A stretch of 64,000 nucleotides of DNA, taken from NCBI GenBank assembly GCA_947579605.1, contig OX388307.1, positions 27,443,237 through 27,507,236 on the forward strand. Direction: 5' to 3'. Of this stretch, positions 1 to 63,279 are shown piece after piece. The number at the start of each line of letters is the position of its first letter. Within the stretch, counting starts at the first letter, position 1. The stretch is from Athripsodes cinereus. Taxonomy: Eukaryota; Arthropoda; Insecta; Trichoptera; Leptoceridae. The notes under the pieces are model-generated. The model was not told the DNA's origin. It did not search any database and worked only from the letters and a program-made list of their open reading frames with translations. The position numbers and the translations under genes were made by a program.

Positions 1-22
1 CACTAGAATAACTTTAATTAGA

Positions 23-63
23 GTTAAAACGTTTTCGGAACTACTTGTTCCATCATCAGTAAC
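23..63 (-). ncRNA. Hammerhead-like ribozyme motif, left arm of F1
   Basis: Read on the minus strand from 63 to 23: GTTA, CTGATGA, one T, a 5-bp hairpin (GGAAC/GTTCC, loop AAGTA), GAA, the palindrome AACGTT, T, then TAAC. GTTA pairs with the final TAAC (helix I), the hairpin is helix II, and the palindrome would be helix III when two molecules pair. All invariant hammerhead core positions (C3, U4, G5, A6, G8, A9, G12, A13, A14) are present. The single U between A9 and helix II departs from the textbook core. Activity is not shown. Confidence 0.68.
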
Positions 64-314
64 AATACTAAACATATTATTTTCAAGGACAGTCAATGTT
101 ATGGTGAAGGTGAAGGAGTGGTGGGCGGGGGCAGGGGTGGAGTATAAAGAAGCATAGACAAGAGTAGAGATGATATGGGTGGAATTTGGATATTTATAAT
201 GTTTTCATTCTTTATGCAGCAATTATTTCTTTCTAATGATTCCAATATATCCAACTTTCTTCCTTTGTCACAGTTATGAATCAATTCTATGTTATGTAAC
301 ATATGTTTAGTATT

Positions 315-355
315 GTTACTGATGATGGAACAAGTAGTTCCGAAAACGTATTAAC
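315..355 (+). ncRNA. Hammerhead-like ribozyme motif, right arm of F1
   Basis: Mirror copy of the left-arm motif: GTTA 315-318, CTGATGA 319-325, T 326, hairpin 327-341, GAA 342-344, then AACGTA 345-350, T 351, TAAC 352-355. The only difference from the left copy is T to A at 350, which breaks the AACGTT palindrome. This copy may therefore be weaker. Confidence 0.62.
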
Positions 356-377
356 TCTAATTAAAGTTATTCTAGTG

Positions 378-795
378 GAAAATACAAAGTTTCTTTTATA
401 CTAATTAATTGAATATATATTTTGTATTGGTACAAAGAGAAATAAAATGTAAGGGGATATGGGAGCGGTCTGTTTCTTACAATGAACGCAAAAAACAGCT
501 GATGATGTCGATGATTGAGCTATTACCTATATCAGTTTTAATTAAGCAATTCGAGATATTACATAAGATTGGAAAAGTTTGCTGCTAAAAAATTCAAGCA
601 ATGAATGAAAATCACTTATAAGTCTGCAATGTTTGAAAACCAAATTGAAATATTTTTATTACGATACATAAATTAAACTTTTATTATTGAAATAATTTCA
701 TTAACTAAAATTACATAATATGAAACTCAATACCTTGTTGAGCAAAGTTTGTGAGTCGTGAAATGTATCGCTTAATAAAAATGAATCTGGATTTA
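378..795. other. AT-rich spacer, nothing recognised
   Basis: No coding pattern, RNA motif or repeat relationship was recognised in this stretch. Confidence 0.5.
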
Positions 796-1130
796 ATTTG
801 TTACTACTACTACTATACCATCATGGCTTATCCCACAATTGGGATAGCCACTGGAGCAGCTGCGTGTAATAAACATGAAAGTTATTCTCTCCGTGTCAAC
901 AATAAATTACGACATTTAGGATGGGTGGCCAGCCTCATCGCTGAAAATTAAAATGTTTTTTCGAAGACCTGCCTTTTACGCGAAAACTGTCGCTCGTAAA
1001 CTTACGGAAAATATTGGGAGACCAATTCTTTGCCAGGTGCTCCATGTAACATATCCAATATTTGACTTAAAACAAATCCAGATGTACCCTAGACACCCTC
1101 ACATTAAGCGTTTATGATTTGAATGATTTG
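796..1130 (+). repeat. Dispersed repeat P, copy 1 (longest)
   Basis: It begins with a TAC run and CTATACCATCATGGC, then contains TATCCCACAATTGGGATAGC, a conserved ATAAACATG block, and GGATGGGTGGCCAGCCTCATC. It ends with a block containing AAATCCAGATGTACCC. The same ordered blocks recur at 17815-18060 (-), 23800-23950, 34595-34685, 43695-43860 (-), 47400-47560 (-), 50045-50150 (-), 56040-56400 (-) and 56930-57030. No protein or tRNA promoter is evident, so the class is unknown. Boundaries are approximate. Confidence 0.6.
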
Positions 1131-1300: not shown

Positions 1301-2042
1301 GAACTATGCATGGAAAACTATATTATGTGATAAGTTCTATAAAAAAGCATTTTACAAAATAGTCAGAACCAATGAAATTTTATTGAAAAAATACAGAGGA
1401 AATCAATGTTAATATGGAAATTAGTCGTTATTTAGTTTTTGCGTTTTACAAACATTTTACACTAATGGCCTTGTTGCCTAACCATTAACCAAGGCAAATA
1501 CCAAATGTATGTACCAAACAATCCATTATTTGTGACAATTTGTTTCATTTGTGTATTATGACTCTAACTAAGTTTTTAAATGATGATTTAACACATTGTC
1601 GCATAACGCACTCTGCTTATAATTTCAGTAGGTAATCATATTTTAAAATAATAATTAATCTCTAAGTTATTATTTCACAGTGCAGTATGATATGAAATAT
1701 TACCTACGTCCATCGTGATTATGATAAATTATCAACAATAATACGAGTACAGATCATCCTTGACATATTATTATATTCCAACTTTGTCACGTGAGTTGAT
1801 CTATATTGAAGAATGGAAAATTAAATACCTGCACAAAATCTGCCACCTGATCCACCACAGGTATAAAAAACAATAAATCAATTATTGTGTGTGATAGGAA
1901 GGCAATTTTAATTTATGGCGTTGTCAATAATTTTGTAAAAGTTTTTTTTTTATTTCTTTTACATAAATAATATATTTCATCATAACAAGTGAAAAACAAA
2001 CAATAATAAGCGTTAAAATATATATTTAATTTGTTAAGGAAT
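1301..2042. other. AT-rich spacer, nothing recognised
   Basis: AT-rich unique-looking sequence up to the target duplication of the next LINE. No exon-like or RNA-like feature was found. Confidence 0.45.
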
Positions 2043-2062
2043 AAGTTATTTTTATATTTACG

Positions 2063-2917
2063 TACAATGCGAGGACGCTGAGGCATGACAAGGAGTTGGT
2101 TGCCGCCAAGATAGCGAGTGACTATGGGTTAGACCTGCTAGGTGTGTCTGAGGCACGTCTTTTGGATTGTGGTAGGAGTGAGGCGGGGAACTATTCCATG
2201 ATTCACTCTGGCTACAAGACAAAACACAAGCATGGTGTCGCCTTGCTAATGAGCAAACGGGCCGCCGGCTCGCTACTTGATTGGGAACCCATCTCCGACA
2301 GGCTACTACGCGCCTCGTTTAGGGCAACGGGTGACCCGTTGACGGTACTTTTGTGTTATGCCCCCACAGAGGATGCGGAGGGGACGGTCAAGCACAGTTT
2401 TTATGACTGTCTGGCAGCCGTCACATCCAAAATTCCTAAAAGGCATAGGATCGTTGTGATGGGCGATTTTAATGCCAAAGTAGGCAACGACCCACTAAAC
2501 GGTCCTGGCGTAATGGGGGGGCATGGCATGGGAGTGCTAAATGACAACGGCTCCCGTCTTATAGAGTATGCAACACTCCAAGGACTCCTTATTGGAGGAA
2601 CACTGTTTCCTCACAAGGATATCCACAAATACACGTGGACCTCACCTGATGGACGTACCAGAAACCAAATTGATCATCTTTTGGTTAAGGCCCGAGACCA
2701 CTCTGATCTACAGAATGTCAGGACATTTCGTGGAGCGGACCTGAAAACAGATCATGAGCTCCTTGTCGGAGCCATGAAGCTAAGGTTCAATAAATTTGCA
2801 AGACCAGCTGCACCGCGAGTGTTTGACGTCTGTGGGTTAGGGAATATTCGGTCTCGCATGAAGTATGAGGCTGAGCTGCACCAAGGATTTGAACTCTCTC
2901 GGTATCTTTCCGATAAT
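2063..2917 (+). pseudogene. LINE-A polyprotein, endonuclease part
   Basis: An open frame runs from YNARTLR (about 2063) to codon 2915-2917. It has the expected endonuclease/exonuclease/phosphatase signatures: LLGVSEA (catalytic Glu), VVMGDFNAKVG (Asp/Asn pair), RNQIDHLL, and TDHELLV near the end (the SDH motif in T form). This domain nicks the target DNA during target-primed integration. No natural ATG start is visible because the 5' end is lost; the first in-frame residues follow directly from the target duplication. The frame is cut at 2918 by LINE-B and resumes in phase at 4191 (codon AAT, then NDSVESAWEEF). The precise rejoining shows the break came from insertion, not decay. Confidence 0.85.
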
Positions 2918-2919
2918 TT

Positions 2920-3540
2920 TTACGGGACTTGGGAATTATCTTCGATCACCATTTAACTTTTATTCCGCATATAGAGGATATCACTAGCAGGGGAATGAGA
3001 ATGTTGGGATTTGTACTCAGAACAGCCAGAGATTTTGTGTCCATACCTGCAATTAAAACTATGTTCGTATCCTTAGTCAGGAGTCAGGTAGAGTATAACT
3101 CCCCTATATGGTCTCCTTACTACGCGGTCCACTCTAAGAATATTGAAAGAATACAGCGCAAATTTCTTAGACACGTCAACTATCTAATGCAAATTCCTGT
3201 TGAGGAAATTGATTACTCTTGTTTATTGTCGCTTTTGAATATGAACACTCTCTGTGATAGGCGTGTGATTTCTGATTTGATTTTGTTATTTAAGATTGTG
3301 AGAGGACTGTTCAATTGCTTTGAGTTGAGCGGGATGATCTCATACCATGTTCCGACAAGGGTCACTCGCCAAGCAATAACTTTTCATAGTGACGTGGTGT
3401 ATACCAACTATGCATATAATTCGCCTTTGAATAGAATTCATAGATTGGGAAACATTTACGGACACTTGTCGGATGTTTTCGCGGATTCCCTGTTTGAGTT
3501 CAGGCAGAGAATGGCGGAGAATTTTAAAGCCGTAATATAA
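2920..3540 (+). pseudogene. LINE-B reverse transcriptase, C-terminal fragment
   Basis: About 206 codons are open, starting mid-protein at RDLGIIFD and ending at a TAA. DLGIIFDHHLTF is the block that follows the RT palm in CR1/Jockey-type proteins (the usual form is LGVxxDxxLxF). It is followed by the thumb-like region with SLVRSQVEYNSPIWSP and IERIQRKFLRHV. Nothing N-terminal of this (endonuclease, YADD) is present, so it is a dead 5'-truncated copy. The downstream start codon sometimes called at 2929 is not biological. The frame has no internal stops, suggesting a fairly young insertion. Confidence 0.8.
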
Positions 3541-3596
3541 ATACTTTGTCCTTTTTTACCTACCCTTCCACTTTGGTAAATCTTGTCTTTGTGTTG

Positions 3597-4100
3597 TAAT
3601 TTGACATGATACGATATGTTTTGGTTTTAATTTGTAATTTTATATGATGCAATGTGTTTTGTTTTTATTTAATGATTTGATATGATGTACCTAGTATGTT
3701 ATAATTTTATTTTATTTTATAATTTGATATGATACGGTGTATTTTTATTTTTTTTATTTTATAATTTTATGTGGTTTGCTGTAAATTTATTTTATGGTTT
3801 GATATGATTCAATTGTTTTATTTTTATTTTATGATTTGACATGATGAATGTGCTGTAATTTTATTCTATAATTTGACATGACAGTGTGTTTTATTTTTAT
3901 TTTGAAATTCGATGTGATGCAGTGTATTGTAACTTTATTTTATGGTTAGATATGATACAGTTTTTTTTTATGATTTGACATGATGCTGTTGATATGTTGT
4001 AATTTTATTATGTGGTTTATGTGACACAATGTGTTTAATTTTTATTTTTATAATTTGAAGTGATGCAGTATATTTTGTTTTTGTTTTGATTTTAATTTGA
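3597..4100 (+). repeat. Degenerate tandem repeats in the LINE-B 3' untranslated region
   Basis: About eight to ten imperfect units of roughly 40-60 bp recur. Each contains a version of ATTTGATATGATGCAGTGT followed by a T-rich run such as TTTTATTTTATAATT. Unit length drifts, as in an old tandem array. It lies wholly within LINE-B between the ORF stop and the (TAAA)n tail. Confidence 0.65.
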
Positions 4101-4190
4101 TACGATGGTGGTGTTGTACAATTGTTGTTTATAACAATGTATTAAAGGCGTAAGCCGTATGTATTATTATAAATAAATAAATAAATAAAT

Positions 4191-6269
4191 AATGACTCAG
4201 TAGAGTCGGCCTGGGAGGAGTTCCAGAGAGTGGTGAAGGCTGCAGCGGTTGCGTCCATTGGGTTCAAAGAGAGGAACAAACCACCATGGATGTCTGTGGA
4301 GTCCTGGGGATATATTCAAGATCGCCAAAAAGTCAAAACACTCAGAGATGCTGAAAAGTCCCCTACGAAACTGGAGGCCCTAAGAAATTCGTACAGAGAG
4401 CTAGACCGCCTGGTAAAGCAATCTGTGCGCAAAGACAGACGACGTGATGTCGAAGCCAAAATACAGCTTGCACAAACTGCCGCGGCCAGGAATGACTCGA
4501 AGACTCTCTTTGAAATTACCCGCATGTTAGGAGGAAGAGGTCAGAATAAGACTGCTGACTCAATTAATGATAGCAATGGAAACCTGATCTCTGCCCCTGA
4601 CTTAGTAAGAGGAAGATGGAGAGAACACTTTGAGTTCATTCTAAACCGACCGGACCCCTCCTCACCTTTTGATGTTGGCAATGAGGATGGCGACCTAGAT
4701 ATCCCACAGGTATCTGGGATAGCCGAAACCCCCCCAACACATGAGGAGATTGAGGCAGCTGTAAAAAGGCTAAAAAACAACAAGGCCCCAGGTGAGGATG
4801 GAATCTACGCAGAGCTCCTTAAGTATGGCATGAATGCGCTTATCCACCCACTGTACCATCTCTTTAACAAGGTGTGGAATGAGGAGCTCTGCCCGAAAGA
4901 TTGGAGAAATGGATCCATCGTGACACTTTTCAAGAAGGGAAACCCACTGGAATGCGGAAACTACCGTGGCATCACACTACTTAGTGTGCCCGGTAAAGTT
5001 CTCTCACAAATCATATTGAGTCGCATTCAAAAACCAGTGTTGGCATCTCTGAGAAAGCAACAATGCGGGTTTGTGCCTGGCAAGTCCTGTTCGGACGCAA
5101 TTTTCTGTGCCAGATGTGTACTCCAACAGTCGCAAGAGTTCAACTCACCGCTTGCATGTTGCTTCATTGACTACGAAAAAACTTTTGACAGCCCCCACAG
5201 ACCAACCATATGGAAAATACTGGCCGCGTATGGCATCCCGCCCAAGGTGGTAACCATGATCAAAGCCCTGCATATGGACTCTGAATGTTCTGTCAGAACA
5301 TCAAGTGGTCCAACTGACACCTTCAGGATCACCACTGGAGTCCGGCAGGGCTGTGTATTGGCACCTTTTATCTTTGCCATAATTATGGACTACCTGCTCA
5401 GAAAATCTATTCTGGGCCCTGGCGGTGTGCCTTTATCACAGCGTGAAAACAGTGAGACGTCTGTGGGAGTGCTGCACGATCTTGAATATGCGGATGATCT
5501 AGCCCTTTTTGATACATCTGTGGACGGATTACAGTGCAACGCTAATGCTCTTTATAAAAATTCCTTGCGCCTTGGCCTTCGTATCAACGCTCGTAAAACG
5601 GAGTACATATGTAATAGTACATGCACGAGTACTCACACCCCACTAATGGTTGGTAATTCCCAAATATCTCAGGTTAGCAAATTCAGGTACCTGGGAGCAA
5701 CCATAACGCCAGAGGGTGATCTCCGGTCGGAATTACCAATCCGCATAGGGGCAGCTAGTGGGGCGTTCAATAACATGAACAAAGTTTGGAAGGCGTCTGG
5801 ACTCAGCATCAGGACAAAATGTCGCTTGTTCAATGCGTGCATCATCCCAATCCTTCTATATGGCTGTGAGTCTTGGCACTTAACCAAGGCTCAGGAGCGG
5901 AAGATACTAAGCTTTGAAAACGGGTGTCTTAGAAGGATTTTGGATGTCAAATGGTATGAACATGTTACAAATGATGCTGTGCGCCGGCGCACATAGCAGA
6001 GACCTGTAATCTCCGTAATACAGGAGAGACGATGGTCCTGGCTGGGACATGTTTTGAGAATGCCTAATGATAGTTGGCCAAAAAGAGCACTGTTTTTCCA
6101 TCCGCAGGGGTTCCGTTGGCCCGGGCGTCCCTCTTTCACAATACACCGTTCATATGACAACGATATCAGAGCGCAAAGAATGTCGTGGAAAGAGGTGACG
6201 CAATTGGCACAGAGACGCTCTGAATGGAGGAGGCTGGTTTCTGCCCTGTGCTCCCGAGAGGAGCGTTGA
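4191..6269 (+). pseudogene. LINE-A polyprotein, reverse transcriptase part
   Basis: The frame is open from 4191 to a TAG at 5994-5996. After that stop the same frame continues to 6269 (QRPVISVIQERRWSWLGHVL onward) and ends in TGA/TAA-rich tail. RT landmarks: KAPGEDGI, NYRGITLLSVPGKVL, CGFVPGKSCSDAI, FIDYEKTFD (catalytic Asp), TGVRQGCVLAPF, EYADDLALF (catalytic YADD, about residue 420 from the ATG at 4230), KFRYLGATI, then a C-terminal LLYGCESW and GRPSFTIHRSYDNDIRA. The 43268-43586 copy reads CAG where this one reads TAG, so the 5994 stop is a nonsense change. ATG 4230 is not the true start, since the protein is continuous with the endonuclease upstream. Confidence 0.87.
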
Positions 6270-7138: not shown

Positions 7139-10100
7139 CTACAAACGCACCCCATTCATTTCCAAAAAACCATACAAAATTCTCACCATTTCAGCAGTTG
7201 GATCACACAAAAGACTTGGCAGGCCCATAGGGAGGTTACCCCTTCTCTTCAGAAGTTCCTGTACAAATTCATCCCTATTCTTGAGCAATTCACATTCGAA
7301 CACAATATGATTAAGATCCGCCACATCCACTCCACAGGAACATCTTGGGGAGTCCAATAAATTGATCCTACTCAAATGAGCCGGGGCAGTTGTATGTCCA
7401 GATCTCAGTCTGCAACTCAATGAAATTTCCCTGCGGGACAAACGGGCCCCAACAAACCATGGTTTCCTTGGAATGGCCTCCTGAACTTCCGTATACCACC
7501 TTCCGCGCTTTTTAGATGTCTCCTTCCAATCAGTCTCCCATTCCTCTAACATTTCTCTCTTTATTGTGGGAACAAAATCACTTGAAGGAATTTTTTTATA
7601 TTTTATTGGGTACGAACTCCTCGCACTCTTAGCCAGCATATCAACTCTTTCGTTTCCTGTTATTCCCTTGTGTCCTGGGAGCCAGGCCAAGATGACCCGC
7701 TGATCATTGAGATGTAAGAGATATAAGAGAAATCTTATTTTTATGAGGATCGTGTTATGTTTCACTTTAAAGGGAGAGGAGTTAAGTTGCAATAGACAGC
7801 TAAGTGAATCTGTAAATATGACACTATTATCTAGTTTTTCCTGGTAGACATGACTCAGAGCCTCCAAAATTGCCAAGCTCTCTGCCGTGAATATTGATGC
7901 ATTTGCGGGTAGGCTAAATATTTCACTAATGTCCAAGGTAGTATTAAGGAAAGCGCAACCCACAAATTGATCTTCCGCAGACTTCGATCCGTCCGTATAG
8001 ATATGGTTGAAGTTATTTAGCTTTGAAATGCAATCACCAAAGAGCTGATTCATTGTTTCGGAATGCTGACCTACTGTGTTGCTTTTCCTCCATTCATCGT
8101 TAAACTCAATCTCAGGTCTTAGCGCAAGCGACTCATATGGGATCTCATATATTGGATTTTGATAGCTACAAAATCTATTCTCTATTGTGCGAGACAACTT
8201 GTTGAAACTTTTGACTAAAGAACACTGTTGCATTTTATCAATTTCTGAACATTGAGCCAACTTTGGGAGGAGAGGATGTGATTGCGTCGAAATCGTAGAA
8301 AGAACGTATTTGTCGCTCAAATATTGCCTACGGATATTGATGGGAGGATCCACCGATTCCACTTGAAGAACATTTGTAGGGGTTGAATTCATACAGCCGG
8401 TTATTAGTCTGAGGCATTTGAACTGAATTCTGTCCAACTTAAGCTTTAAATATTTAGGAATGGGTTCGAAAATAATGGATCCGTATTCTATAATTGTTTT
8501 GACTAAAGCATTGTATAGTAGTTTTAATGTTTCTGGATGGGATCCCCACCAAACACCGGTTGTTGATTTAATCAAATTAAACGATTTATTACACTTGACA
8601 ACGATGTCACTAATATGAGTGGTCCAAAGTAAATTACTTTGGAAAGTGACACCCAAAAATTTTACTTCTTTACATATCGGAATGTTGTCGTTATCAAGTG
8701 CAATTGAAATTTTAGGCAATTTTCTCCTCTTTGTAAACACAACCACTTTTGATTTGGCAGTCGATAGTGCCAAATTATTTTCACCAAGCCATCCACTGAG
8801 AGAATTTAAGGCCTTTTCCAAGGATTCTGATGCTATGAGAGGGTCTTTGTTAACAGAGTATAAAGTAAGATCATCTGCGTATTGAATAATATTAACATTA
8901 TTTGGTATTGAACGTTCGATATCGTGAGTATATACGGAATATAACAGGGGACTCAAAACAGATCCTTGGGGTAACCCTTTGTGCGTGGTTCGGATGACCG
9001 AATTTTGTCCAGAATCCAAAAATATCAAGGTACGTTCTTTTAGAGTTTCAAATATCACATTGGCTAATTTGTAAGGAACAGCGAGTTTATGGAGTTTGTT
9101 TATTAAAGTAGGTATATGAACATTATCGTAGGCAGACGCTACGTCGAGAAATGCAGCAACCAGGCAATGTTTATTCGAAAAGGCGATTCGAATATCAGTA
9201 CTTAGAATACTCAAAGCATCCGTGGTACTTCTACCCTTACGGAATCCGCACTGACTGCGGGCAAGGCAGTTATTATGCTCCAAGAACCAGGATAATCTGT
9301 TCTTTATGAGGTGTTCCATCAATTTCGCTAAGGACGACGACAGAGCAATCGGTCTATATGATGTACTTTCATTGGGATTTTTATTTGGCTTTGCTATGGG
9401 CAAGATGTATTGTGTTTTCCAGTTGTTTGGGATTTGTGCTGACTCAAAAATACTATTTAGAATATTTAAAAAGAAATTCTGGAAATATGAACTGGATAGC
9501 TTTATAAATGAATAGGGTATATCATCTGGCCCAGGTGTTGAATCTTTTAAGTGTGATAGGACTGATTGTAATTCAAATAAGGAAAATGGGCTATTGAGAT
9601 TATGGGAAGGTCTGTTGTTGTATTGGAAATGGAGTTCCTGTTTTGAGACAACATATGGAGGAGCTAGATTATCTATGAATTGGAAAAACCAGACGGAATT
9701 CAAAGGGATTGGTGGTTTAGTGGGATTAAAGGACAATCTATATCTGCGCACCATCTCCCAGACCATCTTCGAGGATGACTGCGGAGAAAGATTTTTGCAG
9801 AAATGATGCCATCCCTCTTTTTTTTTTGTGCGAAGCAGTAGTTTAGTTTTGGCTTCTATGCGTTTATATTCGATAAGGTTTTTTACAGACATATCCTTTC
9901 GATATTTTTTCGCAGCCTCTTTCCTCTTACCAACTGCCTCTGAACACGCTGAATCCCACCAAGGAGCAGGGAATGATTTCATTCTTTGGAATGAGGAATG
10001 GTAAGGTATATATTTTTTGGCTAAAGAGGATATAGTTGTTACTAGTGTCTCATATGTATCAGTACAATCTGTTGATTCAGGAAATAGGTTGGTATTTTTG

Positions 10101-10921
10101 GGAATGGAGTCAAGTTCGGCTAAGAAATCTGATACTTTAGCCTTAGGAGAATCGATTCTATATCTGGGCCTCGACTGGTTGAGGATGTTCAGTTGGATTT
10201 TGAAACTGTTAATAATAACCGGGAAGTGATCACTTCCATACCTGTCCTCTGCTACCTTCCATGTAAGGATGGGTGCTAATTGGGGAGAGCAAAATGTGAG
10301 GTCTATAGCACTCTTTTTTTCATTAGTGTGAGCAAATTTGGTAGCAGAGCCATCATTTAGTATACATAATTTAGAATTATCAAGAAAAATTTCAGACACA
10401 TCATCCCCACTACGATCGTTGACTTCACACCCCCAAAGTTTAGAATGAGCATTAAAGTCTCCCACAATCAGTACGGGTTCTGGAAGAGTTGCAATTATAT
10501 TGGTCCACCACGAAGTGTCAAATTTATATCCCGGTTTGCAGTATACGGATACAATCGTGAGCTCACCTAGAGAGATTGCACAGATTTGGACATCATCATT
10601 TGGGGCTATTATATCAACTCTTGAGTGCGGAATTGTACATTTAATCAAGATAGCAGTTCCTCCATATCCATCGAATCGGTCGCATCGATGACATATGTAA
10701 CCATTGAGATAGAAGTTTGTAGTTTCTCTCAGCCATGTCTCCGATAGAGCAGCAATATTTATATCCTCTGAATGAAGAAGTTCAACTAAATTGTTCTTAT
10801 TTTTTGTAATGCTTCTACAGTTCCATTGGAGAATGTTAGGGAAGATTTTTTTTCTTGTTGCAAAGTTACTATTAGTTTTATTATTCTGTAAAAGTATTGG
10901 TATCGGTTTTTTGGTGGTCAT
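7139..10921 (-). CDS. LINE-C ORF2: APE endonuclease, reverse transcriptase, RNase H
   Basis: 1260 residues, no internal stops. The endonuclease spans about residues 28-240: N34 in QWNCRS, catalytic E61 in LSETWL, VGDFNAH at 153-159, and GSDHFP at 229-234. The reverse transcriptase spans about 455-770: TPGPDDIP, YRPIALSSSLAKLME, QCGFRKGRSTTDA, AAFLDVASAYD (D593), HKGLPQGSVLSPLL, and YADD at 681-684. RNase H spans about 972-1100: YTDGSK (D977), AESLAILEAL (E1014), FTDSLS (D1038), and GNERVDMLAK (D1094). A final CCHC-like cluster lies at about 1194-1210 (CSC..H..C). The protein nicks DNA, copies its own RNA and removes the RNA strand. The ATG at 10921 overlaps the ORF1 end by 41 bp in another frame, which is normal for such elements and implies reinitiation or a similar coupling. 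It could be active. Confidence 0.95.
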   Translation of the reverse strand: MTTKKPIPILLQNNKTNSNFATRKKIFPNILQWNCRSITKNKNNLVELLHSEDINIAALSETWLRETTNFYLNGYICHRCDRFDGYGGTAILIKCTIPHSRVDIIAPNDDVQICAISLGELTIVSVYCKPGYKFDTSWWTNIIATLPEPVLIVGDFNAHSKLWGCEVNDRSGDDVSEIFLDNSKLCILNDGSATKFAHTNEKKSAIDLTFCSPQLAPILTWKVAEDRYGSDHFPVIINSFKIQLNILNQSRPRYRIDSPKAKVSDFLAELDSIPKNTNLFPESTDCTDTYETLVTTISSLAKKYIPYHSSFQRMKSFPAPWWDSACSEAVGKRKEAAKKYRKDMSVKNLIEYKRIEAKTKLLLRTKKKEGWHHFCKNLSPQSSSKMVWEMVRRYRLSFNPTKPPIPLNSVWFFQFIDNLAPPYVVSKQELHFQYNNRPSHNLNSPFSLFELQSVLSHLKDSTPGPDDIPYSFIKLSSSYFQNFFLNILNSIFESAQIPNNWKTQYILPIAKPNKNPNESTSYRPIALSSSLAKLMEHLIKNRLSWFLEHNNCLARSQCGFRKGRSTTDALSILSTDIRIAFSNKHCLVAAFLDVASAYDNVHIPTLINKLHKLAVPYKLANVIFETLKERTLIFLDSGQNSVIRTTHKGLPQGSVLSPLLYSVYTHDIERSIPNNVNIIQYADDLTLYSVNKDPLIASESLEKALNSLSGWLGENNLALSTAKSKVVVFTKRRKLPKISIALDNDNIPICKEVKFLGVTFQSNLLWTTHISDIVVKCNKSFNLIKSTTGVWWGSHPETLKLLYNALVKTIIEYGSIIFEPIPKYLKLKLDRIQFKCLRLITGCMNSTPTNVLQVESVDPPINIRRQYLSDKYVLSTISTQSHPLLPKLAQCSEIDKMQQCSLVKSFNKLSRTIENRFCSYQNPIYEIPYESLALRPEIEFNDEWRKSNTVGQHSETMNQLFGDCISKLNNFNHIYTDGSKSAEDQFVGCAFLNTTLDISEIFSLPANASIFTAESLAILEALSHVYQEKLDNSVIFTDSLSCLLQLNSSPFKVKHNTILIKIRFLLYLLHLNDQRVILAWLPGHKGITGNERVDMLAKSARSSYPIKYKKIPSSDFVPTIKREMLEEWETDWKETSKKRGRWYTEVQEAIPRKPWFVGARLSRREISLSCRLRSGHTTAPAHLSRINLLDSPRCSCGVDVADLNHIVFECELLKNRDEFVQELLKRRGNLPMGLPSLLCDPTAEMVRILYGFLEMNGVRL

Positions 10922-12266
10922 TTTGTACTAGAGTGTTTTTCGTTTGTAGTTTTATTTCGGCAGCGTTGTTCGGTAAGTCAGTATTAGGAAAACCTTGAAT
11001 CAAATCTTTCAAAGAGTTGATTGCAGTTAAAATTGTACACATTATATTTTCTAGTGGTAGGTCATTTGGTTTATTATTCAGTGCAATTCCATTTTCTTTA
11101 GAATAGTATGAGTTGTTTCCATTAGGGTGTATATATAAATCTGTGTTTGGTTGAATAACCGATTTTGCTAAGTACTTATGAGCGGTCGGTGTTTTATACT
11201 TAAAAATTGTTTTTCTCTCCGAGATCTGATTGTTTGACTGTGTTGGTATGCTATTATTTTGTTGGGGGATAAATGAATTTAATTTATCGGCAAAAGACGT
11301 TTTTGCTCGTGGTATTTGTCTTGAAGCTTCAACGTATGATATGCTTTTTTCTGCCATTAGATGTTTTATCTCCTTTTCGCGTATGTATACTGGACACGTA
11401 AAGCTCGTAGCGTTATGCTGTCCATTGCAGTTAATACATTTTTTTTCCGTAATATCACAGCTTTCTCCTGAATGTTCCTCTGTGCATTTAAAGCATCTTG
11501 CTTTTGACCTACAGTTAGTCTTTACGTGTCCAAATCTGCAACACTGGAAACACTGGACAGTTGGAAATATGTAAGTATCCACCGGTATTCTATTGTAATT
11601 GAAATAAACGTGGGGTGGTAATTTCTGTCCCTCTATAGTCACAATGACAGACATAGATGGAAGCCATTTAGGAGTTTCCGAAATTTTATCTTTATAGTTG
11701 AGTCTGCGGACTCTTATTACTGAGCCATACCCCTCAGGGCATATTATTTCATTAAGCAGTTCTTCCTCAGTAATCTCCTTAGGGATCCCTTTAATAACTC
11801 CCATTCGTGTGACATTGTACGTGGGAATAAAAATCTTGTATTGTTTGCTAAGCGAACCGTGTATAAATTCGTTAGCAGCTGTCAATGTTTCGAACTCTAC
11901 TGATAATTTATATTTTCCAAGTGCTTTTACTCCACCTTGTTTTATGTTATTGACATTATTTTTTAATGACTTGCCAAAGAGAATTGGGTTGATTGCAGAA
12001 CCCTCTTGCATCATTTGCACATGAGTGATAAATGGACCCATGTCCCTTGCAGTATATAAAAGTAATGGTAAATTATTTACCATTCCCTTATTTCTCTTTG
12101 AATCATCTGGTGGTGGGGAAAAAGACTGTCTCGTCCTCTTTAATTGTGTCGTCCCGACCTCAGGCAGGTCATCCGACTGACTCATCCTAACCTCTGGAAG
12201 GCTGTTTAGCCTGTCCTTTCCAATATCCGGAGGAACCCCAGGATCCGGCGGCTCCCTCTCCATCAT
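10881..12266 (-). CDS. LINE-C ORF1: gag-like nucleic-acid-binding protein
   Basis: 461 residues. The N-terminal 60 are proline- and acid-rich and look disordered. Residues about 65-235 contain the RRM-like gag region typical of Jockey/I ORF1 proteins (GVIKGIPKEITEEELLNEI). Three zinc knuckles follow: CFQCCRFGHVKTNC at 239-252, CFKCTEEHSGESC at 258-270, and CINCNGQHNATSFTC at 277-291. The C-terminus (about 300-461) is Asn/Ser/Thr-rich. Its role is to coat the element RNA and carry it, with ORF2 protein, to the nucleus. The start is the first ATG after a stop-rich leader; a second Met follows immediately. No disabling change is seen. Confidence 0.92.
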   Translation of the reverse strand: MMEREPPDPGVPPDIGKDRLNSLPEVRMSQSDDLPEVGTTQLKRTRQSFSPPPDDSKRNKGMVNNLPLLLYTARDMGPFITHVQMMQEGSAINPILFGKSLKNNVNNIKQGGVKALGKYKLSVEFETLTAANEFIHGSLSKQYKIFIPTYNVTRMGVIKGIPKEITEEELLNEIICPEGYGSVIRVRRLNYKDKISETPKWLPSMSVIVTIEGQKLPPHVYFNYNRIPVDTYIFPTVQCFQCCRFGHVKTNCRSKARCFKCTEEHSGESCDITEKKCINCNGQHNATSFTCPVYIREKEIKHLMAEKSISYVEASRQIPRAKTSFADKLNSFIPQQNNSIPTQSNNQISERKTIFKYKTPTAHKYLAKSVIQPNTDLYIHPNGNNSYYSKENGIALNNKPNDLPLENIMCTILTAINSLKDLIQGFPNTDLPNNAAEIKLQTKNTLVQNDHQKTDTNTFTE

Positions 12267-20865: not shown

Positions 20866-20943
20866 ATTCACAGTAGAATGTTTTTTTTTTCAGATATTAA
20901 ATATAAGATGATTTGATAAGTGATAATTTCATCAAGGTGATAA

Positions 20944-21099
20944 TTTATAAAATAAAAATAACAAACTTTGTTTAATTCCACTTTAGTCAATACAAGAAAT
21001 AACTAAAACGTTTTCGGGCTTACACCCATCTTCAGTAGTTACGTGCTTTTTGTAGACTAAAGTGGAATTAAACAAAGTTTGTTATTTTTATTTTATAAA
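20944..21099. mobile_element. Foldback element F2, 45-bp perfect arms
   Basis: 20944-20988 and 21055-21099 are exact inverted copies around a 66-bp centre. The centre is almost wholly a hammerhead-like motif on the minus strand (21041-21000). Confidence 0.88.
21000..21041 (-). ncRNA. Hammerhead-like ribozyme motif in F2
   Basis: Minus strand 21041 to 21000: TAACTA, CTGAAGA, T, hairpin GGGT-GTAA-GCCC (a GNRA-type loop), GAA, palindrome AACGTT, T, TAGTTA. Helix I is a perfect 6 bp. Position 7 of the core is free to vary in hammerheads, so CTGAAGA is a valid core. Helices I and II differ completely in sequence from F1 but pair equally well. Confidence 0.7.
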
Positions 21100-21672
21100 A
21101 TGAATTTCCACAGTGTAACTCACATAAAATTAGAAAGTGATAATTTATATAATGTATCAATATTTTTTTGGTTATTACAATAGCCATTATAAGGTATGTA
21201 AAGAAAATAATCACAAAATTCAATATCTAAAAATTTGTATTCTAAGCACGTTTTAGTTCCTGTTTAATTCAAAATTTCTACTTTCCAAACCGCTCAGAGT
21301 TAGGTACAAGGTATTTGATAATGGAAGAGGTTGGTTCATATTTCTACCAATCCCGAATAGATCCTGTAAATACTTTGTTAATTATGATTTTGACACAAAA
21401 AGGATTAAACAAACTCAAAGAGAAATGAGTAATTAGAGTACGGTCTTTGTATATAATTGTTTGATATCGTTTAACTATAAAATAAAACCTTAATTAAGTT
21501 TCATAATTATGATTATGGTATTATTCACCTAACCCTTTTTTATTTTTCGAAAATTTAAAAAAAAAGTAAGTAGTTTTATAAAATTTTATAGCATATTTAT
21601 ATAAACTTACATGAAATGTGGCTATTGATTTTCGAATTATATAATAAGGTTCGTTTTAACGAATTATTTTCC
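21100..21672. other. Intron sequence, nothing recognised
   Basis: AT-rich stretch up to the LINE-D target duplication. Confidence 0.45.
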
Positions 21673-29027: not shown

Positions 29028-29241
29028 TGGTAACAAATAAAATTGTACACATATTTGTTTTTTAGTAATGAAAAATGCTTATTGAAATATAGAAAAACAA
29101 TTTTATCCTTTAACCATTCAGAAGCATTTTAATTGCATACCGTGTGTTACTTTAAAGTTCTGAAATGAGTTTTCAAAAATACTTTTATTATTATTATTAC
29201 CTTTAATTGTTTTTTTGACAAAAGTGATAATCAATTTTATA

Positions 29242-29415
29242 TTAATAACTTATAAATAATTAAAAACACTTATATTTTCACTATATTTATTTAAACTCTA
29301 ACGTTTTCGCCCACTTCAATGGGCATTCTCAAGAGTACATATTTTTTTTTATTTATTTTATTTGTTTTTTTTTTATTATTTATTTATTCAAAATTAATTA
29401 TTTATAAGTTATTAA
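29242..29415. mobile_element. Foldback element F3
   Basis: 22-bp inverted arms (29242-29263, 29394-29415) enclose a T-rich body with an outward-reading, degraded hammerhead-like motif (29336-29295, minus strand). Confidence 0.65.
29295..29336 (-). ncRNA. Degraded hammerhead-like motif in F3
   Basis: Minus strand: ACTC, TTGAGAA in place of CTGANGA (C3 to U and G8 to A), T, a strong 5-bp hairpin GCCCA/TGGGC, GAA, palindrome AACGTT, A, GAGT. Helix I (ACTC/GAGT) still pairs. The two core changes should abolish cleavage. Confidence 0.5.
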
Positions 29416-29559
29416 ATATGAATTTTCACAGTGTTAACACAAACACCCTTCAACAATTAATTTAATGTTAATTTTTGCGTTTTCATATATTTTATTTAAA
29501 TAGTTATAAACGATTATCCAAAACTTTGAAAACTTATTTATTTATTTAATTCTTCACTG

Positions 29560-50150: not shown

Positions 50151-50519
50151 AGGTAAATTCATTGTAATTTGAAAGACCCTCGAGTCATTTAATAACGAAA
50201 TAAATATATAAAGAAACAAATTAATTGTTTCAGTTATTTGTATTACCTACGTCTTATCTTGTCTTGGAGATAATTATTTTATGTTAAAAACTGTAAGACA
50301 TTGTACATTAATACAAATTAAAAGTCACATAACATCAAACTTTAGCAATTACTATCAAATCTAAAAGTTTTCACTCAAAATGGTTTAATTAATAGTGTTT
50401 CTGACTTTCAAACACTATGAATATTATTTAAGTGATTAATAATATACCCAAATGTTTGCCATTCAACGGTCCATTCTAGGGACCATAATATAGATTATTT
50501 GTCGATGTACACGTAGTAG

Positions 50520-50930
50520 AATTCCATAATTAGGTAAATTGGAACAAGTGTTTCTTTCTACTTCAAATTATTGAACACGAGAGAGACGTCTTTTGTATTG
50601 TCGAGAGTATAATATTTTCTTTAAACATAATACAAATTAATAAGTAAATAATACACATTTTCAATTAATTGTATTGTTCATAGTAGCTCAGAAAATAACT
50701 TAATAATAAATTTCTCTTGTATTACTATATAACCGGTTGAATAGTTTTAAATAATTCAGATTGATAAGTCGATCTGATAAGTCGAAAGACGTCTCTCCCA
50801 TGCTCAATGATTTATAGTGGATAGAAATACTTGTTTCAAAGAAACACTCTACCATAACCAATAATAATTATTAGTTGAAAGAAACACTTGTTTCAATTTA
50901 ATTTACCTACAATTTAAAAGTTGGGAATTT
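50520..50930. mobile_element. Large degraded foldback element F7, related to F6
   Basis: Inverted ends share GAACAAGTGTTTCTTTCTAC (left, 50542 area) and GAAAGAAACACTTGTTTCAA (right, 50878 area). Inside are two outward-facing AAAGACGTCTCTC words (50583 and 50782 areas), as in F6, but the hammerhead-like 5' half is lost. Confidence 0.6.
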
Positions 50931-53063: not shown

Positions 53064-53593
53064 TTTTTTTACATTTATTATAAATTTGAATATAAAAAAC
53101 TGGAAAACTAGCTATTATTTGAACTAACTAAGAAACTAATGTATCGAGTTACATTTTCCAAAATAGATTATTAACTATTATTAATACACATTCTTTGACG
53201 ATTGTGGGAGGTAACCTATAATAATATTCTTATGTTTATTGATATTTAATATGTCTACTGATTGAAATAAACTATTTACGTAAGTTTCGTGAGGCTATTT
53301 ATGAATCGATATCTTTACAAAATTACATAAAAAAAAATTGACAATAAGGAGTTCTCCCAAAAATATCCGTGAATAAATTGATAACCCATGAATTTTTATT
53401 GAGAATTAGATTTTATGGATAGGTATTTAACTCTTCTACCTACTTCTTTCGCCCTTTTACATTCCTCTAGGCAATACTGGCAAAAAACTAATAAATACAT
53501 AAATATCTCTGTGAATTCATCATGCTTCACCTTTATTACTCATAGTTCTTTTAACATTTTCTAATTTATTTGTAAATTAATATCTTATAAAAC

Positions 53594-53766
53594 GAAACAC
53601 GATATATAGTTATTCCACTATAGACTTTATTTATTTTTGCGAGCCGGCTTTCAACTACTTCCGCTCTCATCGTCAGGCAAAAGTAAAGCTCTTGAAAGGA
53701 AGCTCTTGAGAGCCGGCTCGCAAAAATAAATAAAGTCAATAGTGGAATAACTATATATCGTGTTTC
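53594..53766. mobile_element. Foldback element F5, 56-bp arms
   Basis: 53594-53649 and 53711-53766 are inverted copies with one mismatch. The centre and left arm carry a full hammerhead-like motif on the minus strand. Confidence 0.88.
53635..53682 (-). ncRNA. Hammerhead-like ribozyme motif in F5
   Basis: Minus strand 53682 to 53635: TTTTGC, CTGACGA, T, a 16-nt helix II region (weak pairing AGC/GTT), GAA, the 8-base palindrome AGCCGGCT, C, GCAAAA. Helix I (TTTTGC/GCAAAA) is a perfect 6 bp, and the cleavage residue would be C, the usual hammerhead base. The core is complete. Confidence 0.65.
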
Positions 53767-54639
53767 ATTTTAAAAATTATTAATATGAACTTCCACCAAT
53801 AACCGTCGGTCGATAAATTAAACTTTATCTTATCAAACGTTATATCTATATCAGTGTGGAGCCCAGCGATCTTACTGTGTGTAATCAACATACAACTCGT
53901 CCTCTTTGAGCCATTTAAATTCATATTCAGTATTAGTAGGATACTTATGCCATTAATATCGTTTTGTCATATTTATTCTCCGCTACTATAGGAATGAAAT
54001 TCGCACATCCTAATCGGAATTATTTTTATCATTGCTTAAAGGTCACTTTTAAAATACTTAGAATAGATTAGTAAAAACTTTACAAATTATTCAATATTTA
54101 AACTTCTAGAATTGATGTTTAGATAAGAAGTTTCATGAAATCATTATTTGTATCTATAATTTATTATTTAACGAATAACTTTGAATTTCTAAATTGAATT
54201 AAATAAATAAATATTTTCGTTTCTATTTGACTTCGAGTCTTCACAGAAAAACATATTGATTACTTACGCGAGTTATAAAAGGAATATTATAACGAAGTAA
54301 TAATCTATTCGTTGTTTTTTTGAAAATAAGTAAATATTTATATTGTATTAACTTACCACGAGTAATTACTGCAGCACTAGTAATTTTCTTTGTAATTTAA
54401 ACTTCTCCATGAATAAAATATATAACTTGCTTCTCATCATGACGTTTCGAGTTGAAGATAATCATCCATCACTCAGAATCCTTTCATTTGCTTTCTGTCG
54501 AGCATGAAGACAATTGAAATTTTCAATTAAAATTAAGAATCTATTGCTTCCGAAAACTAAAATACGTTTGATTGAATTAATATTCTTGAAACGAATATCA
54601 AAATACTAGATTACGGAGGTATTCAACACACGGTTTGTT
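53767..54639. other. AT-rich sequence, nothing recognised
   Basis: No supported feature. Confidence 0.4.
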
Positions 54640-55510: not shown

Positions 55511-55700
55511 TTTTATTTTATGTAAAAAAACACAAATTGTTTTTAGTTTAACTGTATTTATTTATAAAAATAGTGACCAGGTTTCGAATTATGAAGTCAT
55601 TGTCAAACTAATTTTGACTTCATAAGTCAAAACCTGGTCAATATTTTTATAAATAAATATAGTAAAACTAAAAACAATTTGTTTTTTACATAAAATAAAA
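55511..55700. mobile_element. Foldback element F8, about 87-bp arms
   Basis: 55511-55599 and 55615-55700 are inverted copies with about ten differences around a 15-nt loop. Each arm holds a version of a hammerhead-like motif. Confidence 0.82.
55571..55610 (-). ncRNA. Hammerhead-like motif in F8 (core changed)
   Basis: Minus strand: TAGT, TTGACAA (C3 to U, G8 to A), T, an 11-nt helix II remnant, GAA, ACCTGGT (an odd-length near-palindrome), C, ACTA. Helix I TAGT/ACTA pairs. The right arm has a perfect helix II (GACTT-CAT-AAGTC) but lost G12. Each copy is probably inactive, with complementary damage. Confidence 0.5.
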
Positions 55701-56039
55701 TGGAGTTTTACAAAATAAATGTCAACTCAATAAATAAATAATTTTGTTATTGGAGTAATTATATAATACAATTTTTCTTAATATTTATGTAAACGTAAAA
55801 ATGTTACCTACTTAAAAATATAAGTACTTATTATGTTGTGTCCATGGATTTTATGAAAATTTAAGCATTAACTTGTGTACGAGTTAATCTTTGCGTAATG
55901 TTTCATATTATACTAATGGCGGTTTCTTGTACACAAATAAATACGTGTCCGGTAATTTCAATGAATGATCTAAGGTGATCAGAAACTTGATGGCAGAGTC
56001 TTGAACTTTTAGTCTAGACTCTAGGCTCGATCCACCCGT

Positions 56040-56400: not shown

Positions 56401-56734
56401 GATAATTACTTTTAAGAGTACTTTCAACTAAATTATATCATGTGCAATACAAAAACTTTTTTTTCATAGTCTTAATATTGAACAAGTGTGAATGTCCTTT
56501 CTTAATTCTGGAGGCGCCGATGTCTAGTAAAAGGCAGTCAATATTATGCAAAATACAAAATAACATTTTATTTGGCGTCGGTTCAATTTGAATCTGCATA
56601 ATGTGATATTGTCTGTTTTTTTTTATACAATGTATCACGATATTATTTTTTAGTATTAGCATTTCTGCAAGTAGTCTGTCTACAATAAAATTTATTCACT
56701 GTGTCGGTGTTTAGGTAGTAGAATTCCATATCGA

Positions 56735-56891
56735 AATAAATAAAACAAGCGTTTTATTCTACTAATGATTTAATTTGTGAGAGAGACGTCTTTCGTCTTA
56801 TGAGGACATTGTCAATATGTCCTCATAAGACGAAAGACGTCTCTCTCACAAATTAAATCATTAGTAGAATAAAACGCTTGTTTTATTTATT
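56735..56891. mobile_element. Foldback element F6, 75-bp perfect palindrome
   Basis: 56735-56809 and 56817-56891 are exact inverted copies around a 7-nt loop. The inner part on the minus strand reads TTGACAA, T, GTC-loop-GAC, GAA, palindrome AGACGTCT, C: the hammerhead-like layout with C3 and G8 changed. Helix I no longer pairs. Relatives of the arm lie at 50520-50930. Total identity of the arms over 75 bp means recent origin or ongoing arm homogenisation. Confidence 0.93.
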
Positions 56892-56929
56892 ACAATAAAA
56901 TTATTTTGTAACTGTTAGTAGAAATAAGC

Positions 56930-57030: not shown

Positions 57031-57329
57031 TGGAATCAATAACTTTTTCAGAATAGTTAAACACTCACAGAAAATAATTAAATACCAATAATGAAATATT
57101 TACCTTTAACAGAACAATCGAAATTTCACTGAAAATAGTAAAATACCATTGAAAAAAGTTGTTTTAGTTTATTTTCAAATTTAAATGAGCTCTAGAAATA
57201 TAAGTCAGTTAAACTTAAGAAAGAGTAAAATAATATTTTCAAAGATTAATTATTTACTCAAACTTATGAATCCATTAAAATAACAAATGACTAAAATAAT
57301 AATTCATTTATTTACTGTGTGAGTGTTTA

Positions 57330-57480
57330 AATAGTAGAATTCCATAATGAAACTAAAAAAAAAGCTTTATCAACTCTATTGATTTTTATCGATAGACACA
57401 TTTTTCATCATTCAATAATGCTGTCAAGATTGACAATCAAAATCAATAAGTAGAAAAAACATTTGTTTTTAATTTCAAAA
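57330..57480. mobile_element. Degraded foldback element F10
   Basis: Inverted arms share GAATTCCATAATGAAACTAA-like and TTTAATTTCAAAAT ends and ATTGATTTT/AAAATCAAT inner parts. The minus-strand centre keeps TTGACAG, hairpin CATT-ATTG-AATG, and a shifted GAAA, a damaged form of the shared motif. Confidence 0.55.
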
Positions 57481-61200: not shown

Positions 61201-62595
61201 TGTTAAGTTTTTGTGTGACCATGACTGATCATATGGAGACTTATCTGGTTGTATAATGCTGAGAAGTGCGGATGACAATTCTCCCGCCGCGTATTTTGTT
61301 AAAAAAGAAAGCTTTAAAACAAAACTAGTAAGAACCTATGCAATAAATAATATGGTGGTCTACGTAGTGTTTTTGTTACAGCGGTAGCCAAGGTCTGTAT
61401 GATTGTTGTTCGTGCTTTTACTGATGCGAATGCTACGACATTGAATTATTGAACTTTCTATCTTAGGTGTATTTTTAACGTAAATATATTTTGAATACAT
61501 TTTGCCTGACACACTTGAGCGTGCTCATATTCATGCAACCGTATTGTTTTCCTTTATTTATATTCAAGGTCTCTATTAATTTTGCTAGTTGGTTATGATT
61601 TTATTTTTAATTTCAAAGCGATTTGATTTATTCTTCAAGCAATTTGTGGCTCTCTTGTGACTGAAAATATTATTTATTATACAAATTTATAACCTTGAGT
61701 TTCATCACGTTTCCCATGTCAAGTCGATACATCACTGGAAAAATGACACCCTGCTGAGTGAAAATAATATTCTCAGCAAGCGACAAAATAATCTTTTTGT
61801 TAAATTGGCTCTTCAAGTTGCTACTTGTTAGTACTATCATTACAATTGTTTATCATTGTATTTATTATATTGAATGTCAGGAAATGGCACGATGCACAAC
61901 GGTGAAGGTGAATATTATGAAAGCATTTTATAGATGTGACTATTGAATAAAGCTTTTTACTTCCGTTAAAATCGTGCCTAACGTTTAACTTTAAAAAGCT
62001 TCCGTTCAATTGAGCACATTACTTTATCTGGGACGAGGTCTCTCAGCGATTTATCAAAGAACTGAGAGCCGTTACATGAATTTGATTTTCTTACAAAATG
62101 CCGAAGGAATTCATTTTATTTTGCCAAAAAATCTCTTGATTTTTTTTTAATGGACGCTTTTTATATTTTTTCTTAAACTAACTGTAACGAATAAAAAAAG
62201 TTCCATTGTGGTTGACAGATTGTAGACAAATTGAGTTAAATTTCCCTGGTTGTTATTTTTTAAATTTATTTATTTTAATAGACACCACAGCTTTGACGAC
62301 AATGAATAATACAATAATTCAGTCAATTATTTATATCGCCAATTAAAGTATCTAAACTCTGAATAATTAAATAGCACGTACAATATTAAAAAAAATTATG
62401 ATGGTAAGGCACACTTTTCTGGGAATTTTTGCCTTTAATAAGCATGCTGTTAGCAGAAATTACTTGCAAACTAAATATTTTATTATGTACAGTTTACTCT
62501 GTTCTTCTGCTGCTGCTCTATTTTGATTCTGAAAAATAAGACATTGAGTTAGACTATTAATTTTTTCGGTAGTCACTTGGTGAAAGTTCATTTTT
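58224..62595. other. 4.4 kb AT-rich sequence with no supported gene
   Basis: No exon with family resemblance, no RNA gene. 60980-61050 has a slightly GC-rich block (AAGCAACTTAATGCTTGCGC) that may be the inverted 3' end of a retroelement, but I cannot confirm it. 58310-58370 may hold a remnant of repeat P. Confidence 0.4.
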
Positions 62596-62666
62596 AATAA
62601 ATTTTGTTATAAAAATAAAATCAAAAACACTGTTTACTTTCACTTGTTATTTATTTTAAATATTTT

Positions 62667-62703
62667 AGCAAAGATCTTTCGTTATATTAACATCATCAAT
62701 GCT
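62667..62703 (-). ncRNA. Hammerhead-like motif, left arm of F9 (C3 changed)
   Basis: Mirror of the right-arm copy, but the box reads TTGATGA instead of CTGATGA. Loss of C3 should inactivate this copy. Confidence 0.55.
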
Positions 62704-62895
62704 CACTTACAACTAAACACAAAACAAAATCTGCTGGTATACATTGTCCTCACCTCTTATCTATCCTTTTGTATATTCCGATTCACCTTGTAAACCAACC
62801 ACATAATTATTATTTCTTAGAAATGGGAAATCCCCATACAAATGTATAATGCTTATGTATACCAGCAGATTTTGTTTTGTGTTTAGTTGTAAGTG

Positions 62896-62932
62896 AGCAC
62901 TGATGATGTTAATATAACGAAAGATCTTTGCT
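62896..62932 (+). ncRNA. Hammerhead-like ribozyme motif, right arm of F9
   Basis: AGCA 62896-62899, CTGATGA 62900-62906, T 62907, hairpin GTTA-ATA-TAAC 62908-62918, GAA 62919-62921, palindrome AGATCT 62922-62927, T 62928, TGCT 62929-62932. Helix I AGCA/TGCT and helix II pair perfectly. The core is complete apart from the extra U after A9 seen in all copies. A best candidate for testing. Confidence 0.7.
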
Positions 62933-63279
62933 AAAATATTTAAAATAAATAACAAGTGAAAGTAAACAGTGTTTTTGATTTTATTTTTATAACAAAATTT
63001 ATTGAGTTAGAGTTAGACATTGAAAGTTTCGGTTTAATTATGTGCTCAATGAATATTTGTATTATTCAAGATGGAGAAAAAGCTGAGACTTCTAAAAAAA
63101 ATTGAATATTCTATGAATAAATATTGGTTTTTGTAATAGATTTCAACAGATGCAGTAGAACGTCAAATTAATAGGACTTGTGGAAATTCCGTACCCCATG
63201 TTTTACGAAAATATTGTTATTTAAATTTTATGTTCCATTAATGATAATTTTCAGGGATAAACCTGTTTTGAAGCTTATC

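Follow-up and report, generated by a model that had tools for sequence, protein, structure and literature searches.

Short foldback elements of Athripsodes cinereus read as minimal head-to-head insertions of Penelope-like retroelements across an uncut hammerhead motif

Two published accounts (PMC3846280, PMC11167929) describe Penelope-like retroelements (PLEs) as having a hammerhead ribozyme close to the start of the open reading frame (ORF), an optional short tail that extends into the ORF, and inverted, head-to-head pseudo-long terminal repeats (pLTRs). The second (Frangieh 2024, PMC11167929) demonstrates cleavage and extension of both DNA strands by the PLE protein, with two nearby internal start sites on the RNA that bound the tail; it also reports that insertion in vitro was unaffected in hammerhead mutants and that no RNA reads ended at the presumed cut site. 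A 2020 review terms the role of the PLE hammerhead a mystery. Here we describe nine short foldback elements in a 64,000-nucleotide stretch of the Athripsodes cinereus genome (the window; contig C3, 27443237-27507236). E1 to E9 are names used here; the F-numbers of the original prediction, a reading made from the letters alone, carry no coordinates. Judged by their sequences, we read all nine as minimal head-to-head PLE insertions, and we consider it highly probable that such foldbacks were made by two-sided target-primed reverse transcription on uncleaved PLE RNA, followed by end joining.

A search for GIY-YIG across the genome (716 Mb, 160 contigs) returned at least 86 matches when the best 150 of 1,102 candidates were scored. 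One of the elements, PLE-A (L029), forms a tandem array with a period of 2,657 bp, 99.95% identity and open frames of 832 codons; pLTR-forming tandem units were examined for, and found in, PLE-A only. Its protein carries RVT_1 (PF00078, 37.4 bits) and GIY-YIG (PF01541, 25.2 bits), both above the Pfam cut-off, and its named relatives come from butterflies, beetles, other insects, fish and a schistosome. A second element, PLE-B, has an open frame of 830 amino acids (aa). Hammerheads were sought with a descriptor made up of [CU]UGANRA, 0-1 nt, a helix II of at least 3 bp, GAA, a self-complementary word and a non-G base. The motif lies upstream of or at the ORF start in PLE-A, where the predicted cut falls 77 nt upstream of the ATG, in PLE-B, and in 9 of 20 further PLE 5′ regions that pass the descriptor; the other 11 fail it, some being 5′-incomplete or masked.

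The foldback arms match these 5′ regions. E2, E7 and E9 agree with open-ORF PLEs of the same genome at 93-100%, and E4 (76-77%) and E8 (79-88%) are weaker matches to the E7 family. Within a sample of stretches at preset positions, L020:7753-8007 consists of two head-to-head copies (89-91%) of the PLE-A segment between hammerhead and ORF start, the outer ends of which differ by 41 nt on the PLE. An ORF start of the M[NE]F[HY] type stands on one side of each of E2-E9, and of E1 when its left flank is included. The pattern used to find such tails is weak by itself, since of its 16 occurrences in the window 8 fall at E2-E9 and the other 8 do not; the telling feature is that it stands where an arm has its outer end. 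Some PLE proteins from elsewhere begin MNFHQVKAS, MDFHRVTAN or MEFHKLKLD, and the PLE-A protein start differs from these; a looser tail pattern was found near the start of 6 of 120 homologues among the matches listed, and in none when reversed. E1, E3, E5 and E6 were assigned by tail, hammerhead or remnant, E1 also by its genomic copies. The original prediction had called the arms unrelated and the hairpins mobile, hammerhead-bearing and perhaps non-autonomous relatives of PLEs. The arms do differ, and we read them as coming from different PLE families, hence their lack of mutual likeness, rather than from unrelated elements. The alliance with PLEs was borne out, the arms being PLE 5′ segments; the notion of separate non-autonomous relatives was not, as the segments belong to PLE families of which some have open ORFs in the same genome.

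To map ends we aligned 40 loci of the E1 family and 20 loci of PLE-B, each family to a single copy, taking the best 40 of 807, 40 of 684 and 40 of 266 candidates for scoring. A query containing the hammerhead supplied the first 20 E1-family loci and biases them to long arms; the other 20 came from a query lying entirely downstream of the cut. For the PLE-B loci the query spanned the ATG, which favours one tail per pair. Head-to-head pairs were found at 47 of the 60 loci (PLE-B 18/20, E1 family 29/40). A full arm begins 5′ of the uncut hammerhead and stops just short of the ORF, and the 3′ (outer) ends fall into two classes, one just before the ATG and one about 40 nt further, in the ORF. Of the 47 pairs, 42 have one tailed and one untailed arm, comprising 18/18 for PLE-B and 24/29 for the E1 family, the latter with p = 2e-4 against independent arms. 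Among E1-family pairs from the after-cut query the count is 12/14; in a subset of 15 E1-family pairs it is 12/15 by rule and 13/15 by eye, the tail of L042 carrying a deletion. Flanks with at least 8 bp in common bound 31 of 46 pairs (L073 was omitted, its flank being too short); when the flanks were shuffled 500 times, such pairs averaged 2.2 and never exceeded 7.

The two arms of a pair are also closely alike. No substitution separates the PLE-B arms in any of the 18 pairs, and at 97 site-pairs of subfamily variants in the E1 family the minor variant occurs in both arms 8 times and in one arm only 6 times, an indication that both arms of an E1-family pair stem from one locus or molecule. An origin of the arms from different RNAs was considered and set aside, the E1-family variants mostly agreeing within a pair. 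Independent insertion of two copies is likewise disfavoured, because a single duplication often bounds the entire pair. Full-length open PLE ORFs also occur head-to-head, 0.6-0.8 kb apart, at C8:2437043/2440092 and C15:21625085/21628319.

Inner ends, numbered from the base that immediately follows the predicted cut, cluster upstream of the hammerhead. Arms start upstream of the core in 34/36 cases for PLE-B and 39/58 for the E1 family, and some arms are truncated. For PLE-B, 26 of 36 starts lie at -56 to -52, with 17 exactly at -53, the A of TTCAGTCT (TCAGT, L030:636); the PLE-A copy in L020 begins at the A of TTCAGTAT (TCAGT, L029:1207). In the E1 family 21 of 58 starts lie at -46 to -39, most commonly at -44, near the A of TTTAGTAT at -43. 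We take TCA(+1)GT to be the arthropod initiator. At L012 both copies begin at AGATTGAC, with a 2-nt filler, in agreement with the TC-AGATT upstream in the E7-family PLE L100. The hammerhead cut was considered as an origin of 5′ ends and rejected: starts at the cut (-1 to +2) number 0/36 for PLE-B and 2/58 for the E1 family, or 2 of 94 arms, and both are in L061, whose centre is palindromic. That the ribozyme defines the element ends is thus not supported. As for the junctions, a single type, GTAG-A/T-CTAC read in either orientation, recurs in 6 of 18 PLE-B pairs, and in 5 of the 18 (L076, L077, L080, L082, L088) the junction inserts repeat nearby sequence, which resembles polymerase-theta repair.

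Together these ends suggest templates whose 5′ end is an initiator-like A and whose hammerhead stays uncut; copying would proceed from both sides, with joining midway. We propose that a staggered cut would leave two exposed DNA 3′ ends, each of which would prime reverse transcription inside the PLE RNA at one of the two start sites. Both cDNAs would then cross the uncleaved hammerhead toward the RNA 5′ end, and microhomology-type repair would join the two cDNA ends. As the start sites lie about 100-155 nt from the inferred RNA 5′ end, the product would be a short hairpin and not a full element. Two priming DNA ends would explain why there is a duplication, why the copies stand head-to-head and why each has its own, independent 3′ end. 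Copying as far as the RNA 5′ terminus would explain the common inner ends and the uncut hammerhead, and end joining the structure of the junctions. We infer the priming from both ends, the identity of the 5′ ends as transcription starts, and the repair pathway.

Several observations weigh against this proposal. Thirteen of the 60 loci were not scored as pairs; some may have a partner of too little length or one outside the stretch, and others may be true single insertions. The one-tail rule is broken in 5 of the 47 pairs, all of the E1 family (four with no tail, one with both), and the 18/18 of PLE-B is favoured by the ATG-crossing query. In 15 of 46 pairs the flanks lack a common word of at least 8 bp. 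In the E1 family only 21 of 58 arms begin near the initiator, and the loci found with the hammerhead query can hardly reveal starts downstream of the cut; among the 28 arms of pairs at the after-cut loci, 8 begin downstream of the cut and 6 near the initiator, and L061 supplies the 2 that begin at the cut, so that truncated arms are common in this family. Finally, the two strands showed no difference in start site in vitro (PMC11167929), an outcome from which the one-tail rule would not follow.

The rival that survives best, though we hold it unlikely, is self-priming (snap-back), in which the cDNA folds and copies itself, or an antisense transcript primes on itself, in a single priming event. 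PMC3846280 puts this forward for rotifer Penelope elements on account of palindromes at the inverted junction, and several junctions here are near-perfect palindromes with centres of 1-7 nt; the absence of inter-arm substitutions in all 18 PLE-B pairs is likewise in its favour. However, self-priming predicts equal outer ends, whereas 42 of 47 pairs join one tailed to one untailed arm, and the commonest PLE-B centre would demand a hairpin loop of 1 nt. In E2, E9 and L020, moreover, the copies start at differing places, and part of the loop comes from one copy only. The sampled insertions therefore favour two-sided priming over self-priming.

We give still less credit to a hammerhead-processed retrozyme, in which self-cleaved, circularised small RNAs would be the mobile form and the foldbacks their insertions. 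Animal retrozymes with type I hammerheads do exist, according to PMC7229834, and L095 (C1:2412750-2413500) is a complex array of repeated and inverted short hammerhead units of the E7 family; most arms nevertheless cross an uncut hammerhead, with ends at the cut in 0/36 PLE-B and 2/58 E1-family arms. Close neighbours are also mostly head-to-head and not tandem: among the first 100 listed matches of each of two patterns, cores no more than 1 kb apart comprise 26 head-to-head (-,+), 0 tail-to-tail (+,-) and 8 same-strand neighbours. The L095 array suggests template jumping. As to a DNA-transposon-like foldback or miniature inverted-repeat transposable element (MITE) family with terminal inverted repeats that acquired a hammerhead, the inverted repeats and the flanking words of at least 8 bp in 31 of 46 pairs would suit it, but its probability is negligible, given that the outer ends are unlike (tail versus none) in 42 of 47 pairs where identical terminal repeats would be looked for, and that the arms belong to different PLE families and end inside or just before the PLE ORF.

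The hammerhead-like motif itself is real and enriched. The window holds 68 inverted pairs and 7 descriptor matches, compared with 0 in the reversed sequence and a mean of 0.66 and maximum of 3 in 50 shuffles; a separate set of 30 shuffles gave a mean of 1.03 and a maximum of 5. Matches with a helix I of at least 3 bp number 5, against a mean of 0.05 and a maximum of 1 in 100 shuffles, and have their cores at 59(-), 21035(-), 29332(-), 62699(-) and 62900(+). The match at 56815(-) lies within an inverted repeat with a helix I of just 1 bp, and that at 32906(-) looks like chance. In a 264-kb set made up of the window and twenty 10-kb stretches at preset positions on contigs 1 and 2, 28 short inverted repeats (the L018 satellite, repeats starting before 5600, was omitted) cover 2.5% of the sequence and contain 9 of the 12 matches with a helix I of at least 2 bp (p = 7e-13); the reversed control gave 0. 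The three matches outside are the E3 core at 29332, one in L017 that adjoins PLE sequence, and a probably fortuitous one in L018. Across the genome the tight core pattern CTGANGATG..CGAAA has 7,076 matches compared with 79 in the reversed control. An Rfam search of the window with E up to 5 found no hammerhead, a result that is weak either way as helix III is very small.

The predicted enrichment was accordingly found, over shuffled sequence in the window and inside relative to outside inverted repeats in the 264-kb set. The prediction had further counted at least seven elements with the motif, placed at the boundary of arm and loop, and this held in part: the motif is not intact in seven, with E5 and E6 keeping a one-arm core with damaged helix II and E4 (50.5 kb) and E8 (57.3 kb) degraded, and its position at the boundary is not general, the core in 62554-63000 lying about 45 nt within the arm.

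The structure is that of a type I hammerhead in its minimal dimer form, which may self-cleave as monomer or dimer. In 13 tabulated hammerheads (L018 and L104 being close kin), the single U after A9 noted in the original prediction is present in all, and basal pairs 1-3 of helix I are Watson-Crick in all, with 2-4 pair types; the descriptor demanded helix II and the self-complementary helix III, and helix I was free, although its best-scoring reading was taken. In a freer check a loose core occurs in 9 of the 20 PLE 5′ regions, and all 9 pass the full descriptor. The helix III word is imperfect in E6 and L023. Matches by core pair 3-8 across the genome number 7,076 for C-G, 16,274 for U-A, 976 for C.A and 743 for U.G, versus 79, 328, 94 and 182 in reversed controls; the association has a raw odds ratio of 159 against 1.5 in controls, with matches being copies and not independent events. 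This conservation argues that the fold has mattered, and does not by itself demonstrate cleavage. The U3-A8 variant is natural, and such covarying cores are active in vitro, according to PMC3088659. Energy folding gave no support from thermodynamic stability, as the PLE-A and PLE-B 5′ segments alone were not more stable than shuffles (z -0.10 and -0.43).

We speculate, with considerable doubt, that the PLE hammerhead is mainly an RNA pairing signal and not a template cutter. Helix III would dimerise two RNAs, held by a protein dimer, and so provide one template per DNA end, one used at the tail site and the other at the inner site. If true, this would explain the uncut motif in templates and the head-to-head pairs with one tail, as well as the self-complementary helix III in 9 of 9 core-bearing PLE 5′ regions (imperfect in E6 and L023).

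Within the window, E1 (1..405, right end approximate) is a head-to-head PLE pair with genomic copies; L035 is this same locus together with its flanks. Its left (-) copy is tailed (ATGGAATTCCACAGTG.., MEFHSV), the tail lying left of the window, and carries a hammerhead that is intact by the descriptor from core to H17 (27..59, -); the right (+) copy is untailed. E2 (20944..21138) is a PLE-B pair at 97-99% identity to L030, the (-) copy corresponding to L030 636-750 and the (+) copy, with the tail MNFHSV, to L030 695-789; the flanking word GTGATAATTTATA stands at 20937-20949 and 21137-21149, and the descriptor finds an intact hammerhead at 21006..21035 (-). E3 (29240..29455, boundaries approximate) is very asymmetric, with a (+) copy reduced to the tail MNFHSVNTNT and some 30 nt immediately upstream of the ATG; its descriptor match at 29299..29332 (-) has the U3-A8 core variant UUGAGAA. 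E4 (50492..50906, boundaries approximate) is a degraded and apparently nested pair, kin to the L100 family, with its tail on the left (MEFYY). Tails are on the right in E5 (53570..53815, MNFHQ) and E6 (55527..55740, MEFYKINVNS), both with approximate boundaries and a left copy with damaged helix II, the cores reading CUGACGA and UUGACAA respectively; the self-complementary helix III word of E6 is imperfect.

E7 (56693..56890, tail left) is a pair of the MEFYYLNTDTVNK PLE family, whose open frames are 824 aa (L096) and 819 aa (L100); compared with L100 the tailed arm is 96% and the untailed arm 93% identical. The flanking word TACAATAAAATT stands at 56681-56692 and 56891-56902, and the descriptor match at 56783..56815 (-) has the U3-A8 variant UUGACAA and a weak helix I of 1 bp. 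Weak inverted pairs (72-74%) lie around E7 at 56175/57147 and 56325/57000, perhaps an older foldback hit by the E7 insertion. E8 (57303..57480, tail left, MEFYYLNTHTVNK, boundaries approximate) is an older pair of the same clade. E9 (62554..63000, tail left) is a pair of the MNFHQVTTEKINS PLE family (L102, L103, L110) at 98-100%, its "loop" being the right copy's longer 5′ end and its flanking word ATTGAGTTAGA standing at 62543-62553 and 63001-63011. By the descriptor, its left-copy hammerhead (62671..62699, -) has the core UUGAUGA, and that of the right copy (62900..62928, +) the consensus core.

Other repeats lie in the same sequence. Hairpins at 23049-23248, 28886-29012 and 30517-30650 of the window have neither a descriptor match nor the PLE tail pattern; L022 contains inverted-repeat elements at 591-789 and 8935-9917 with arms of 54-65 bp, 93-98% identity and no hammerhead match, and L018 a satellite-like array (~2000-5600) of TTTTGACAGGTCGTCCATGAAATGATG-type units in direct and inverted order. 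At 7139-12266 (-) the window holds a LINE with a 1260-aa endonuclease/reverse transcriptase (RT)/RNase H ORF and an upstream ORF of 461 aa, with jockey as one named relative and a best homologue at 43%; further RT or endonuclease ORFs at 2096-5996 (+) and 21716-22984 (+) are apparently LINE fragments.

PLE foldbacks number 7 in the preset 200 kb, which suggests about 25,000 per genome (10,000-52,000), and make up 14 of 24 distinct short inverted-repeat elements in the 264 kb, the other 10, including 23049-23248, not being PLE foldbacks. If the estimate holds, these tens of thousands of short insertions are natural end-mapping data for PLE replication, and the rule of usually one tail is a constraint that any PLE mechanism has to satisfy. 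There is also a risk, in animal genomes, of mistaking palindromic hairpins of 100-450 bp for MITEs. PLEs, minimal hammerheads, head-to-head pLTRs, the tail and the duplications are already published. Among the papers listed in a search of titles and abstract starts there was neither a description of ORF-less hammerhead foldbacks as a product class nor a mapping of inner ends to an initiator, which is weak evidence of absence, the key PLE-hammerhead papers lying outside that search.

Compared with known systems, the foldbacks share with animal non-LTR retrozymes, as described in PMC7229834, a type I hammerhead within small repeated DNA. Retrozymes, however, are tandem repeats with canonical hammerheads; the foldbacks are head-to-head, end in the PLE ORF start, and are not short tandem repeats processed at cut sites. 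Minimal type I PLE hammerheads that act as dimers are reportedly the subject of work by Cervera and de la Pena (2014) and Lunse (2017); the motif here is like them in the tiny, mostly self-complementary helix III, the core, and helices I and II, with no difference in kind, and the U3-A8 core variant is abundant in this genome. In LINE-1 twin priming two target ends prime on the RNA and yield inverted sequence; the foldbacks differ in that each copy is a 5′ segment facing outward, drawn from two fixed start sites inside the RNA. The closest likeness of the source elements is to GIY-YIG PLEs of the Penelope/Poseidon type, with which they share an RT and GIY-YIG ORF of about 830 aa, tandem units, hammerhead, tail and inverted pLTRs. 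The sampled pairs likewise show an optional 3′ tail of ~30-40 bp on one inverted pLTR and, in 31 of 46 cases, a target-site duplication around the whole unit, and differ from Penelope/Poseidon PLEs in being mostly ORF-less 5′ segments, drawn from several PLE families and present in an estimated 10,000-52,000 copies.

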